NCBI GenBank assembly: GCA_037176845.1
Contig: JAYKXP010000021.1
Coordinates: forward strand, 62,001-126,000
Length of the DNA: 64,000 nucleotides
Direction: 5' to 3'
Origin: Paramarasmius palmivorus
Lineage: Eukaryota > Basidiomycota > Agaricomycetes > Agaricales > Marasmiaceae
Program-made: the position numbers and the translations under genes
Shown: in pieces, positions 27,300 to 63,885 of the stretch
Layout of the letters: each line of letters begins with the position of its first letter
How positions within the stretch are numbered: the first letter of the stretch is position 1
The notes under the pieces: generated by a model
Seen by the model: only the letters and a program-made list of their open reading frames with translations
Told to the model about the DNA's origin: nothing
Database searches by the model: none

Positions 27300-27479
27300 A
27301 GTGCCCCCTCTCTCCACCCCACCCCTCGCCGCCCTCTCTCGGTACACCCCCCTCCCCCCACCCCCACCCCCCCCCCCACACCCACACACCTACCCCAACC
27401 ACCCCCCCCCACCCACCACCCCCCCCCCCTCCCCCCTCACCAACCCAATCCCCCCCCCACTCCTCCACCCAGCTTACCC

Positions 27480-27514
<35 letters not shown>

Positions 27515-27660
27515 ACATCCCACCCCCCCCCCCCAAACCCCCTCAACCACCCAAACCCACCCATCCGTCCCCCCCACCCCGCCTCCATACAATTCCCCCC
27601 CCCCCCCCCTATCCCTCCCCCCCCCCCCGCCTCCCCCCCCCAACCCCACCCTCACGCTCT
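27300..27660. repeat. C-rich low-complexity tract with a C34 run
   Basis: About 360 bases are made almost entirely of C with scattered A and T; the longest pure run is 34 C near 27481-27514. Open frames here on either strand are only Pro- or Gly-rich translation of the tract and are not genes. The tract may be real or an assembly or base-calling artefact. Confidence 0.85.
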
Positions 27661-50594: not shown

Positions 50595-50862
50595 ATAGAC
50601 TCGCAAGCCAGTCTATACGGTGACGCTTGCCTTCCCTCGCTGCTAGAAATCGTGGAATCCGAGAGTCGGAAAGGGACGAGGTAAGGTTTGGTAACGATTT
50701 TGATGGTCGCTCGGGGTAAGGGCAAGTCATAGACTCGCAAGCCAGTCTATACGGTGACGCTTGCCTTCCCTCGCTGCTAGAAATCGTGGAATCCGAGAGT
50801 CGGAAAGGGACGAGGTAAGGTTTGGTAACGATTTTGATGGTCGCTCGGGGTAAGGGCAAGTC
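50595..50862. repeat. Tandem duplication, two identical 134-bp units
   Basis: The unit at 50595-50728 (begins atagactcgcaagccagtct, ends gggtaagggcaagtc) is repeated without any difference I can see at 50729-50862. The unit length is not a multiple of three, so open frames across it change frame between copies. Confidence 0.9.
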
Positions 50863-50872
50863 ACCGTACAGA

Positions 50873-57116: not shown

Positions 57117-57408
57117 GGGCGGTGAAGGAAGGGTCTTATTCGGGCTCGAGTCAACTGAATGGTTACTATAAGCTCTCTTCTGTTCATGGACTTCTGGACG
57201 GGGATAAGTACTGATATACTGATAGCCGAACGATGTGAGCTATTTGTGAGCAAAGGAGCGTCCACAAGGATCAAGCGTCCGAGTTGAAACAAGGTTAGAT
57301 CATTATGTCGTGACATCTACATAGGAAACAGAAGGGGCACCAAATCCACGGTTGAAGAATGTTGAACTCGACTATTTTCTCGCACGCGTTCGTTTTACGT
57401 TGGTGATG
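57117..57408. other. Intergenic up to the mobile element
   Basis: Promoter side of the DUF6535 gene. It ends with ttggtgatg (57400-57408), the left copy of the direct repeat flanking the element. Confidence 0.5.
57400..57408. repeat. Target-site duplication, left copy (TTGGTGATG)
   Basis: The nine bases just outside the left inverted repeat equal the nine just outside the right one (63589-63597). One further G (57399 and 63588) also agrees, so 9 or 10 bp depends on where the element is taken to end. Confidence 0.8.
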
Positions 57409-57527
57409 CAGGCTCCTTCCCACCCGTCCTAATGAAGTATCTGCATCAACCAATCAGAACACGACATAATTCGGGCAGATACTTCCTAGGACGGCTGGCA
57501 CAAGGTGATCGGACCGCCCTTCCCGAG
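57409..57527 (+). repeat. Left terminal inverted repeat
   Basis: 119 bp, complementary to 63471-63588. It contains its own hairpin: gtcctaatgaagtatctgc (57426 onward) pairs with gcagatacttcctaggac, with about 27 bases between. The inner part caaggtgatcggaccgccct is identical in both ends. Confidence 0.88.
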
Positions 57528-57646
57528 GCAAGCTGGTCTGCAACGTCACCCCCGTAGCCGACACTGGTTCATCAAAGGAGTCGGTAAGATATTGTAGATA
57601 ACAGTACCGTAGCTGGCTGTAATACTATTCGAGCTATACGATCAAC

Positions 57647-60365
57647 ATGTCGAGCGAATTCATCCAACTCAGTGCTCTCACTATCAGCGACATTATTCGG
57701 TACATGGATCAGCATCACCACACGTCACCCGGCGAATTTTTTCTCTCTCTTCTCGATCCTAACATCTTTGACAAATCGAATCATTCTGTCCCTCAATTTT
57801 TGGTCGACATATTGGACTCTCTTGTGGCCCTTGAACCAACAGCGGCATCTATATCTGCATGGGCCATAAATCACACGATTCAGATCCTTCATCTTGAAGT
57901 CGGCCGACTCACACACGCATCCTCCGGCTTTCAGCTCGATGCGAAGAATGCAAAACGCCAGGACCTCGAGCAGCTCAATATACAAACTTTCAGCAGCCAG
58001 ATGCAGGAATTGGGGCCAAATTTGTGGAGAGTCCTTGCTGCATTGCTCGATTCCAATGATCCAGATCTATCAGCACATCGGGACGCTCAACAGCGCTACA
58101 AGAAGAGAAAGAAATCCAAGAAGGACCAAGAAAAAGTGAACAGGAAGGAGATAGAGGACGGTCTTGATACAAGAGATATTTTTAATCCTAGGATGGAAGA
58201 CTGGGTGGTTTTTGATGAGTTGACTAGAGAGAAGGATAGAAAAGCAGAGAGAAGGGCCTTGATGGAGATTGTGCGTACTCGCAAGGCATTTGATGCAATT
58301 TTTACGCTAATCGTTGTTTTAGAAACAAGTCGTCTGCATCAGTATCATAATTCAAAACGCGAACGTGAAGTGCAACGCCCTACAGGCTTTGATTGGCTTG
58401 TTTCTTCATACATGTAGTGTATCCGAGAGCACAATCGAAGTTGTTGCACATATTGGCGTCTCCGTATCTCAGACCACTATCCACAACATGGTTTCGAACC
58501 TATCTGAGACCCATGCAGAGGATCTCATTTCCCTGGGTCGCCGGCTGCTCGTAGCCTTTGGCTTCGATAATGTTGATTTTTTCCTCGAACATACTTCACC
58601 CATCGTCGGCGATCCCACCTCCAGTCTCCTCCATCTCACATCAGGGACGTTGTTTCCCCTGCAACATGGGATCACACTTGGTGATCTATCATGTGCGCGA
58701 GAGTTAGCTGTTCAGAGCCAACAAAAAGCATCACAATTCTTCTCGGACTTCGAAATTGGTTGCGCACTTCGGAAAGAGTTCCCAGATCCGCTCCTCGACA
58801 GTACCGGAATGAATCGTCGACAACGATGGTACCAGTGGAAGTTCCTGCATGACCTCATAACACTTGATTCATCATTTGAAAAGTTCTCGAGGGATCTACA
58901 GGATCCCGAAGACGTTTTGCGCATCCCTCTTACACGGTTCGAGCAGTTACATGCTCCACTCATGGATACACCGTGTTCCAAACCCTCAGAGTGTGATGAG
59001 GTGCTTGAGACACTTCTTCGACGATGTGCTCATATCGGAGACCCATCAGATCGAACGGAAGAGAGCCCCGGGAGCATAGTAGATGTGGATAACATGGTGT
59101 TCCTTATATTTGGTGATCTCGGAGTCGGCGAGCAGATACGCTCGCTCATTGAGTCCCGAAGTATCGAGGGGACACCTTGGCGAAGACGAGAGTTTGTTGT
59201 ATATGTCCTGGGCTTGTTTCATGTCAAGATGGCATGTGCCGATGCTATTTGGCGCATCTATCTGAAGTCGTCTGATGGCGTTGAAGATCCTATGACCCTC
59301 GAAAACCTTGTTCGACAGATACGCCCCGAGGAGACCGGCAAAATCAAAAGCAATCCTGGGTTCCGTCGAATGCACGAAGTTATCCAGCATGTAGGAGCAG
59401 TGGAAAGGCTAGATTGCTGGCGAGTTCTTGTCAAGAAACACACCAAGTACAACACTCTTGCCGAATTTGCGGCGTCAGATCCTTCATTTGAGGACTTGCA
59501 CAACCTTGCTGCTATCCTAGCCAAGGACTATGTCTGCAAGATTGGTGACAAGCCAAAGAATCAGCGGCCATCGGGATGCGAGGATTTACCTCGAGATCTC
59601 ACATTTGAGAACATGTTGCAGCGGCAGCAATTGTTCCTGCTTTATGAGGAAACTACATGGGCAATGAACGAAGGAGACATAGGGCGGCTAGAAGAATGTC
59701 TCATTCCGTGGATGTGGGTCTTTCGATCAACAGGAAAGCACCGATACGCTAGATTCATCCATTGCTACCTTCGTGATATGTATTTCACATACTCAAGCTT
59801 TCCTGGGCTACGGTAGACTTTCATATTAGTTCACCATGATCCGTCTCTAACGATATTCTTCACTTTCCCAGTCGCGCTATTCGCTTCCATATCTTGGTCA
59901 ATCCGACAGGGAAAAAGGGAAAGTGGCGGCCAGTTGATTGGGTCATTGAGTTCAACAATTTGTATTCAAAGGCTCGTCGCTTCATCTGAGTTATCAAACC
60001 TTGCTAATACACTTCCTCAGGCCATCTTCGGGGGTCAATTTTCAAACCACAAGAAGGAATACATCATCAAGGAATCTGCGTTGATTGGAGTGTATAAGAA
60101 TGCTAAGCAACAAGTCGAAGAAATGTTCAGGATCACTCACGGCACATCGCGACATTCAATGCGCAATTTGTCCGGTACCTTCAAAAAGCTTCAAAGGTAC
60201 TTCGAAGATAAGGAAGCGCACGAATTTATTGATGGTCGGGAAGCAGGGTTCCAAACGGAAGATGTTATTAATAAAGGCGCGGGTATGGAAGTAGCTACTG
60301 GGCAGGGTGCAACAGCCGAAGAGGACGACCCTATCGTGCTAGAGGTTGATGACTTTCAAGTATGA
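57647..60365 (+). CDS. DUF6589-domain protein, 852 aa; candidate transposase of the element
   Basis: Four exons: 57647-58270, 58323-59812, 59872-59971, 60021-60365; the sum is 2559 nt. Intron 3 begins GC (59972) instead of GT, and keeps NNLYSK joined to AIFGGQFSNH. Residues 1-210 are helical with a lysine-rich run (RYKKRKKSKKDQEK). The DUF6589 region follows: NALQALIGLFLHTCS, FGFDNVDF (Asp at about 290), IFGDLGVGEQIRSL (Asp about 473), GLFHVKMACADAIWRIY, YEETTWAMNEGD (Glu about 650), then ILVNPTGKKGKWRPVDWVIE and SALIGVYKN. Two Asp and a Glu at the ends of predicted strands would fit an RNase-H-type DDE transposase, which is inference. It is inside the inverted repeats and 162 bp upstream of the helicase gene, so it probably works with it. 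Confidence 0.85.
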
Positions 60366-60527
60366 GAGGTCAGCAAAAGGAAGACTATGACATGTGAACA
60401 TTGTGTGACCATCTCAGACGCGGCGCGTCATTGATAGTAGTAAAAATTTGTGCACTCTTTCTCTCTCTCGATTTCTACCTATTTATGCTCTCATAACCTA
60501 TACTATCACTCTCTAATTCACGGTATC

Positions 60528-63286
60528 ATGTCAATTGATAATCCGTTCGTTTGCTCCGACCATACTCCCCCTAAAGAAACCACCAAACCCGCAAAAAAAT
60601 GGAATGTCGAGTCAATCCGGGCTGCCGTCGAAAAACGTTTACACAAAAGGCCGTGTCTTGCACAGATATTACCCGCACAAGCACTCTACGAAGGTTGTGA
60701 TGTAGTGAGCGTGGAACGCACCGGTGGAGGAAAAACTTTATCATTTTGGATTCCCTTGTGCATGTCGTTGGAGGATGGCTCGAACAAGATGTTGACACTC
60801 GTTACGCCGCTCACACTCCTTGGAAAGCAGATGGAGGTTAATCTTAAAGAAGCTGGGATCCCATGTGTTGCAGTTGATTCTTTCAACAACACATCAAAGA
60901 CATATAAGGTGGGTCCTCCGATCCGTTGTCAATTGTATACTGGCTATGATGTTGATGGAATACAGGACATTGCTTCGGGAAAATATTCAGTAATTGTCAT
61001 TAGCCCAGAGCTTGCAACACATGGCTCTTATCCAGCACTGTTGAAGGATGAAAAGTTTAACAAGCGGCTTCTAGCCATAATATTTGATGAGGCGCATACT
61101 ATCAGCACATGGGGGAAGACATTTCGGGACAGTTATAGGACTGTCGGGGACCTGCGATACTATATTCCCGATCATGTACCCTTCTTTGCTGCATCCGCGA
61201 CAGTCACCCTAGCGATTCTTGAGGATATCCGTGGAATCCTTCATCTCCGTACCTCCCGAACGAAATATTATATCCGTTCCAATGACAGGCCAACGATTAG
61301 CCTGGGAGCCTTCCCCTTGAAACATCCAATTGATTCATTCCGAGACCTGGCATTCCTCATTCCTGATAACTATCAAATTGGACACGCACCTATACCCAGC
61401 TTCCTTGTCTTCTTTGACAACACCAAGACGACCGAGGACGCAACTCGATATCTCCAAAGCCGGCTCCCCACCAAGATGCGTGAACGGGTGAAGTGGTTTC
61501 ATGCTACCATGACCAAAGCATTCCGAGAGGACACTTATAATGAGTTTCGGCGAGAGGAATTGATTGGTTTATGTGTCACAGATGCCTTTGGAATGGTGAG
61601 TTCTACTTGTAATTCACCGAATAAACATCACTTATCATTACTTGATTAGGGACTAGATCTACCGAACGTAGAAGTCGTCGTCCAGTATCGGATACCGACG
61701 GCGAGTCAGAGTGGAAGCATCTGTGCTGCGGCGCAGAGATTTGGACGTGCAGCGAGGGGACCAAATACACGGGGGATGGCCATTCTTCTCTACGAGAGTG
61801 CCTTCTCTGATTTCGAACGAGTGGAGGCAGAGAAAAGAGCTGATAAGAAGGCTTTAGCATCAGCAGTTGCTGCAAAAAGAAAGGCAGACGGCGACTTACC
61901 TCAGTCCCCACGCAAACGTGCAGCGTGTGCTTCTCTCAACAACATCCCTCAGACACCAGTCACTCCCACAACTCCAGGCACCCCTCAGAGTCTCACCACA
62001 CCCACTCACCGATCACCAGCAACCAGCCCTTCCCCCCAACGCCAACAGAAGACATCTCCAAGTGTTCCTGCTCGTCACTTTGCGATTGCCAAAGGCATTT
62101 ATAATCGATCCGAAGCACAGCGTTTAGCAGCCTACCGCGCTACTGAAAAGCAAAAGCAGAACTCGCCATCACGCCGAAAACAAGCAAAGTCACGTACGAT
62201 AGACCTAGGCTCAGCAATGGACGACTTCGTGAATGCTCGGACTCGAGGATATTGTCGAAGGAATATTCTGAACACTGCATTTAACACAGGAAGACAAGAA
62301 TGTGAGTTATCATAGTGTTCAACGTAGTGCAAAACTAAATACCTCTTGTCAGCAACCTCTAATCATAGAGACTGTGATTCATCAAAGCCACAAGGCTGCG
62401 CTCGATGTTCGCCGCAGGTGATGGATGTCTGTTGTGACGTGTGTAACCCAGCAGCCTTCCGACACGTCAACGATGCCACTGTCTCTGCTCCGCCTCGTGC
62501 ACCACGTAAATCCTCGGCCAAACCTCATGTTGCTTCACACCAGCAAGAGTGTTTTCGAAAGGAACTTCGGGAGTGGGTATGTAAGACGGCAGAGGCAGCC
62601 GCCGGGAAGGAGGTAATCAGTGAGTTCGGCGTTTGCATTTTCATGGCGGACGTCATTTTCGAACGAATCATCGATATTTTCCATCTCGGAAAGCTCACCT
62701 CAAGTGATTCTTTCGATAGAGAGGTTCAATGGCGTGCAGATTTCAAGGCCAGATACGGGGCGAACATTGTTGGCATTGCCAGCAAGTACGCCGCTTCCTT
62801 TCCCACACCGACACTTCCTTCACTCCCGTCATCAACCAATTCAACGGCAAGTCACGCATCGAAGGAGCCAGTGACAGCGCCGGGAGCGTCGTCATCGAGA
62901 ACACCTCGCCAGGAAAGATGTAGCGCCTGCCAGGGTCTCGGACATAGAAGTACGTCTTCACTATAATCTTCAAAACCTATAGGCTATAACTCACTTTTCT
63001 GTTAGAGAATAACAAGCTAAAATGTCCTCGTCATCCAGAAAACCCCGCCAACGTGCTTAGTGCTATGACCCCGAGGACTCCTAACCCATCTACCAGCACG
63101 CCGATTGCAATTCCACGAGCCGCCGCGTCACCTACACCACCCCCGCACTCTGTAAATCATCGATTCATTCCATACACGGCTCCTGCACAGTATCGATCTA
63201 GTCCCCTTGCTACTCCCCGTTCCAGTAATAACCAGAATATTCCACCAGCAAATCCTATCCCTCATTCTAATTCTCATAATACATAA
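60528..63286 (+). CDS. RecQ-like DNA helicase, 865 aa
   Basis: Four exons: 60528-61595, 61650-62301, 62353-62949, 63006-63286; the sum is 2598 nt, in frame. The start is the ATG at 60528 (MSIDNPFVCSDHTPP). Helicase motifs in order: Walker A TGGGKT (residues 65-70), VTPLTLLGKQM (motif Ia), DEAH (187-190), FAASATV (motif III), LVFFDNTKTTEDA (motif IV), GLDLPNVEVVVQY (motif V), QRFGRAARG (385-393, motif VI). A Thr/Pro/Ser-rich linker follows, then Cys-rich segments GCARCSPQVMDVCCDVC, as in the RecQ zinc region, and CSACQGLGH...KCPRH, a possible zinc knuckle. The end is Pro/Ser-rich. RecQ enzymes unwind DNA 3' to 5' using ATP. As cargo of a TIR element it may assist transposition or repair of the donor site. 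Confidence 0.88.
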
Positions 63287-63470
63287 CTAATGAATTCATC
63301 GTACATATTACACTCATTTGCGTATAGCTACACTGTATATAACTCTTAGTACAAAGATAATCTGTTCGTCCAACCTCTGGTTCAGCTCACATTCCCCAAG
63401 AGGTAAGTAGAATCTCCGAATGGCAAGAGATAAAGATTTAGCGAGGGTGGTTCGACCGGGTTTGCGTCGT

Positions 63471-63588
63471 CTCGGGAAGGGCGGTCCGATCACCTTGTGC
63501 CAGCCGTCCTATGAAGTATCAGTCGAAATAGCTCGTGTCCTGATTGGCTGCTGATGATACTTCATTAGGACGGGTGGGAAGGAGCCTG
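63471..63588 (-). repeat. Right terminal inverted repeat
   Basis: 118 bp, complementary to the left end, including gggcggtccgatcaccttgt and the terminal acgggtgggaaggagcctg. Its internal arms (tcctatgaagtatc and gatacttcattagga) also form a hairpin. Confidence 0.88.
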
Positions 63589-63597
63589 TTGGTGATG
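63589..63597. repeat. Target-site duplication, right copy (TTGGTGATG)
   Basis: Matches 57400-57408 exactly. Confidence 0.8.
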
Positions 63598-63745
63598 GAT
63601 GATTAGGAACAAAGTAGTAGACCCGTTTAGGACGTAATATAATTTATTCAAGTGCCGAGCGGTTATTCGGTCCGGACCACGGAGTACGCTAGGTAAGTAC
63701 ATTGCTGATTGGGGTACGAAGACTGGGCAACACAGGATGTACCCC
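63598..63745. other. Flank of the mobile element
   Basis: No gene or RNA recognised. Before insertion this DNA would have followed directly on 57399. Confidence 0.4.
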
Positions 63746-63830
63746 TCTAGCTAGACTGCCTTGTAAATCAACCCGGCCGTCTAGCTAGACTTGGCGGGTG
63801 GTTGTGAGCCCTTGCTGTCTAGCTAGACAG
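63746..63830. repeat. Three copies of the palindrome TCTAGCTAGAC
   Basis: tctagctagac at 63746, gtctagctagac at 63779 and ctgtctagctagacag (a 16-base perfect palindrome) at 63815, spaced about 33-37 bp. Short inverted repeats at regular spacing can be protein-binding sites or remnants of a repeat. Confidence 0.7.
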
Positions 63831-63885
63831 CCTTACGGCATATATCCCCGTGATCACGGAAGCACTTGGGTGCCTGATAAACAAA

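Follow-up and report, generated by a model that had tools for sequence, protein, structure and literature searches.

Which kind of mobile element carries a RecQ-family helicase next to a protein of the family DUF6589? The question is raised by an element of Paramarasmius palmivorus, a basidiomycete of the family Marasmiaceae in the Agaricales; the element lies at positions 57409-63588 of a window of 64,000 nucleotides (contig JAYKXP010000021.1, here C21, of assembly GCA_037176845.1; coordinates are positions within the window, and C-numbers denote contigs of the assembly). As a class II transposon it very likely belongs to the AcademH kind, since a helicase and a 9-base-pair (bp) target-site duplication in a basidiomycete fit the description of that kind, and it is probably autonomous. 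A preliminary description of the same DNA had claimed that no known element fits, and had proposed a class II superfamily that moves with its own RecQ-family helicase. The class II nature and the helicase of its own are retained, and the kind turns out to have been published already; the premise was wrong because the DUF6589 protein looks like a DDE (Asp-Asp-Glu) transposase, judging from alignment and predicted fold, and because AcademH had been named before.

The element is enclosed by terminal inverted repeats of 119 bp on the left and 118 bp on the right, which are 90% identical and give a local alignment score of 96, against 18 or less when one arm was shuffled 200 times. The 9 bp directly outside the two ends form a perfect direct repeat, TTGGTGATG; at a fixed position, such an identity has a chance of about 4e-6 (4 to the power of minus 9). 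Inverted repeats of about 118 bp and a direct repeat outside the ends had both been described before, and both are borne out. The termini read CA and TG, and two spliced genes, both on the + strand, are found between the inverted repeats (Table 1). An empty site was also sought in the genome assembly, where the matches were the element's own two flanks only.

Table 1. Features of the element in the window, with the observations on which each is placed.
Feature	Position	Strand	Basis
Left target-site duplication, TTGGTGATG	57400..57408	.	Identical to 63589-63597
Left terminal inverted repeat, 119 bp, starts CAGGCTCCTTCCCACCCG	57409..57527	+	Pairing with right arm; genome-wide tip search
Putative transposase gene, DUF6589, 852 amino acids	57647..60365	+	Reading frame, relatives, PF20231 match
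Codon D290, proposed catalytic residue 1	58566..58568	+	D in 63/63; first core strand, model strand 77-87
Codon D473, proposed catalytic residue 2	59115..59117	+	D in 62/63, 1 gap; directly after core strand 260-264 of model
Codon E665, proposed catalytic residue 3	59691..59693	+	E in 61/63, 2 gaps; model helix 453-469
RecQ-family helicase gene, 846 amino acids	60528..63286	+	Reading frame, relatives, domain matches
Right terminal inverted repeat, 118 bp, finishes CGGGTGGGAAGGAGCCTG	63471..63588	-	Pairing with left arm
Right target-site duplication, TTGGTGATG	63589..63597	.	Identical to 57400-57408

The first gene has four exons (57647-58270, 58323-59812, 59872-59971 and 60021-60365), and its third intron, 59972-60020, is a GC-AG intron required by the gene model. 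This intron was located from relatives, not transcripts, and the exon limits in both genes come from reading frame and relatives; a counterpart with a GT donor was sought in related copies, which offered no comparable stretch. The protein ends at about the same place as its aligned relatives. It matches PF20231 (DUF6589) with an E value of 9e-81 (272 bits, cut-off 27), the sole match in a Pfam scan up to an E value of 1, and Pfam describes the family as of unknown function. The three proposed catalytic residues, D290, D473 and E665, are all there in 60 of the 63 aligned sequences, the remaining three being gapped, and the predicted fold is an RNase H-like core with a helical insertion. Structure comparison places this fold nearest to the P-element, Hermes and RAG enzymes with middling Z scores, and a Foldseek search with it, viral library left out, returned no significant match. 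The predicted core with its helical insertion is thus a likeness to the P element, hAT (Hermes), RAG1 and Transib, which to our knowledge carry no helicase. C/DxxH, a motif of P and hAT, is in contrast not conserved in DUF6589: between the second D and the E, no single position has it in more than 17 of 63 sequences, and such a string is found anywhere in 26 of 63. A distant profile search from the DUF6589 alignment gave three proteins, all of them DUF6589, and reached no animal Academ relatives; the three protein searches scored just the roughly 8000 candidates with most words in common.

The second gene has five exons (60528-60908, 60966-61595, 61650-62301, 62353-62949 and 63006-63286), because 60909-60965 is an in-frame 57-bp intron, a stretch that is missing from all 14 aligned relatives. 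The final model has 846 amino acids, and the domain scans, the genome and protein searches and the 14-relative alignment used a version of 865. Two spliced genes had been described as intact, a statement that holds once amended by the GC-AG intron and the fifth helicase exon. Pfam finds DEAD and Helicase_C domains in the protein. Its best NCBIfam matches are RecQ-family models, all under their curated cut-offs (recQ_fam at the top, E value 4e-37, 128.2 bits against a cut-off of 219.8), and the solved structures related by sequence to the coding stretch 60528-61595 are WRN, RecQ, RECQ5, BLM and RECQ1 chains. The protein contains TGGGKT, DEAH with a subsequent aromatic stretch, SAT and QRFGRAARG, which we take to be the functional motifs of the helicase. 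C-terminal of the motor there is a Cys-rich stretch with a CCHC-like knuckle, largely kept in the 14 relatives; none of the usual RecQ C-terminal domains was found there by Pfam. Among the 36 best protein matches, all 35 with a named organism come from what we take, by genus, to be mushroom-forming fungi, and bacterial RecQ follows next, with an E value of 3e-19.

The two genes recur together, whereas the preliminary description would have been refuted had they rarely done so. The genome holds at least 62 DUF6589 matches in 29 clusters and at least 35 helicase matches in 31 clusters, and a helicase match lies within 5 kilobases (kb) of 18 of the 29 DUF6589 clusters and within 3 kb of 17 (the window's included), where chance would give about 0.13 clusters (31 x 10 kb / 68.3 megabases x 29). 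Some paired copies are near-identical recent duplicates and are not independent; the excess of pairing is far beyond what duplicates explain. The other 11 DUF6589 clusters comprise nine without a helicase match on the contig and two with one at 8.7 and 15.7 kb. Sixteen of the 18 pairs are convergent and one is divergent, so that the one-strand gene order of the present element differs from the 17 others in the same genome. Seen from the helicase, 18 of 31 clusters have a DUF6589 cluster no more than 5 kb away, in agreement with the earlier suggestion that extra RecQ-like copies are cargo of such elements. Outside this genome, relatives of both genes share at least five contigs in four other genera: Trametes polyzona (4362954 bases), Rhodofomes roseus (746638 and 36130), Fomitopsis serialis (43940) and Pholiota molesta (83420). 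These represent 5 of the 36 best helicase matches (P0080-P0115), matched by organism name and contig size; the co-occurrence is weak on the two longest contigs (4362954 and 746638 bases), and on the Rhodofomes roseus contig of 36130 bases the gene numbers are g6060 and g6058.

The same ends are found elsewhere in the genome. With the whole element as DNA query, the assembly yields a single full-length copy, that of the window, and on C2 a decayed right part of 70-75% identity; C2, C103, C84, C20 and C11 also hold shorter stretches that match the ends. The 18-base tip occurs at eight places, all exact with one mismatch allowed, and its reversed control at none. Six of the eight tips form three pairs, which bound the present element and two small copies, C2:1249071-1249964 (894 bp) and C103:167935-168829 (895 bp); the tips on C20 and C84 are unpaired. 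The small copies are identical at 882 of 896 columns, and the longest stop-free run of the C2 copy is 90 codons. Their ends are those of the full element, and their contents are unrelated to it and hold neither gene. The preliminary description had named, as a finding that would tell against it, inverted repeats around unrelated contents with no flanking duplication; both complete small copies do carry duplications, of 9 bp on C2 (GTTTATCCC) and of 8 bp on C103, as non-autonomous copies should have. The ends are therefore mobile, since the same repeats bound copies of about 895 bp with duplications of their own, and they were probably still so in the recent past, to judge by the likeness of the two copies. 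Another element, recognised by eye from its long near-matching inverted repeats (cttacccgacggctacagacaccct...), is found at about 165013-165949 of C2, some 2.5 kb from the decayed relative.

A second family was reached with one end of an element on C214 as query, which found related ends on C36, C133 and C53. On C53, the ends of the copy read TAGTCTCGA..., the flanks hold an exact 9-bp duplication, GTGCTGTAT, and DUF6589 and helicase matches lie inside. The sequence GGATAGGAT is common to the left flank of the C36 copy and the right flank of the C133 copy, which may stem from a single insertion that was divided by recombination or in the assembly. Both ends are found for seven copies in all, and five of these have a perfect duplication, three of 9 bp and two of 8 bp; the variable 9-bp duplications that had been predicted are thus variable in sequence, with lengths of 9 or 8 bp. 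An inverted-repeat search of the outer 2.2-2.4 kb at nine further DUF6589 loci (C52, C15, C157, C214a, C171, C22, C163, C115 and C146) gave no convincing pair; the ends there may be short, decayed, cut by the contig end (C214a) or outside the stretch.

AcademH was reportedly named by Kojima in 2020 (Mob DNA 11:15); the lineage occurs in fungi and animals, encodes a helicase and makes duplications of 9 or 10 bp. An earlier fungal case is said, by the title of a 2008 report by Kempken, to be the CPA element of Tolypocladium inflatum with its RecQ-like gene. Helitrons are not known to have inverted repeats or target duplications, and they encode Rep with a Pif1-type helicase; a Helitron was rejected here, as inverted repeats and a duplication are present and the helicase is of the RecQ family. 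A later study, which cites Kojima, puts AcademH and AcademX in one superfamily and ties duplications of 9 or 10 bp in the former, and of 3 or 4 bp in the latter, to a helicase versus a nuclease (PMC10045372). AcademX, although of the same superfamily, thus differs from the present element in both respects. AcademH is low-copy in Basidiomycota, Ascomycota and Mucoromycota according to a kingdom-wide survey (PMC10799480), and putative non-autonomous Academ elements occur in Marasmius oreades (PMC8290104). The element resembles AcademH in all the features compared: in the helicase between its repeats, in the 9-bp duplication that it shares with the C2 and C53 copies, in its putative DDD/E transposase, and in its basidiomycete host, where it exists as one full-length copy.

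Some observations weigh against this assignment. Two of the five duplications in this genome, those of the C103 copy (GCTGCTGT) and of the copy C214b (CGAATCCC), are 8 bp long, where AcademH has 9 or 10; the C36 and C133 copies are without duplications of their own; and the comparison with Academ was made by published description. The short duplications and the nature of the comparison would also suit a new DNA-transposon superfamily outside Academ, in which DUF6589 would be a DDE lineage of its own that teamed up independently with a RecQ helicase, and so would the literature, since DUF6589 goes unmentioned in the open papers searched and PF20231 matched only an unrelated optics paper. Such a superfamily is nevertheless unlikely, as the host group, the helicase and the duplication length of this element match those given for AcademH. 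Improbable, too, is its wider form, in which PF20231 would found a superfamily near P, hAT and RAG in fold, spread in mushroom-forming fungi with a dedicated zinc-region RecQ-type helicase and the source of most surplus RecQ genes. For 13 of the 31 helicase clusters, the surrounding 5 kb hold no DUF6589 match, so that helicase relatives also occur on their own. This could mean that host RecQ and DUF6589 genes were caught by chance between inverted repeats, as a composite or through capture by another element, an explanation made very unlikely by the pairing of 18 of 29 DUF6589 clusters against 0.13 expected, some recent duplicates notwithstanding, and by the common contigs in four other genera. 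KolobokH, as described (PMC9587614), has been recorded from fungi alone and has a RecQ helicase downstream of its transposase, TTAA 4-bp duplications, 5'-RR/YY-3' ends and C/DxxH between the second D and the E. The helicase and DDE transposase, the fungal host and the downstream position of the helicase on the same strand are common to the present element, yet its duplication is TTGGTGATG and not TTAA, its ends are CA and TG and its C/DxxH is unconserved, so that KolobokH was rejected as scarcely credible.

For an element of the AcademH kind, the DUF6589 protein would bind the inverted repeats, excise the element and insert it at target cuts with a stagger of about 9 bp, the fill-in of which would leave the duplication. 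The RecQ-type helicase may unwind or remodel strands in excision, integration or gap repair, and the copies of about 895 bp could be mobilised in trans by the same enzymes. It is a guess that transposition depends on the helicase, made because a helicase frequently accompanies DUF6589.

The public annotation at the locus (P0144, VNI00_006740, 1568 amino acids) holds both genes in one protein labelled 'DNA 3'-5' helicase'. Its model links the genes (60360-60665) via the donor GTATGAG, which shares bases with the stop codon of the transposase. The fused protein omits helicase residues W25, I30, R31, K40, R41 and C43, which show no or almost no variation among the 14 aligned relatives, together with the Cys-rich region. 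This loss, and the fact that the separate transposase stops at about the same point as its relatives, speak against the fusion, which we reject and regard as an annotation error; the two genes may still have a fused splice form as a minor product.

Elsewhere in the window, whose G+C content is 47%, TCTAGCTAGAC stands in three spaced copies at 63743-63832, about 150 bp beyond the right end of the element. A 134-bp unit is repeated in tandem at 50595-50863 (2.0 copies, 100% match), and about 290 bases at 27347-27641 are of low complexity and very C-rich on the + strand.

To a known kind of element, the present case adds a likely function for DUF6589, a gene order on one strand, the 8-bp duplications of other copies and a public model that fuses the genes. 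In automatic annotation such an element can pass for a gene of the host, as it does here, which would inflate RecQ counts in mushrooms. DUF6589 gains a testable function, that of the transposase of helicase-bearing elements, and this copy, which has both genes and long ends, offers with the small relatives that share its ends a good start for asking what a RecQ helicase is needed for in a cut-and-paste element.
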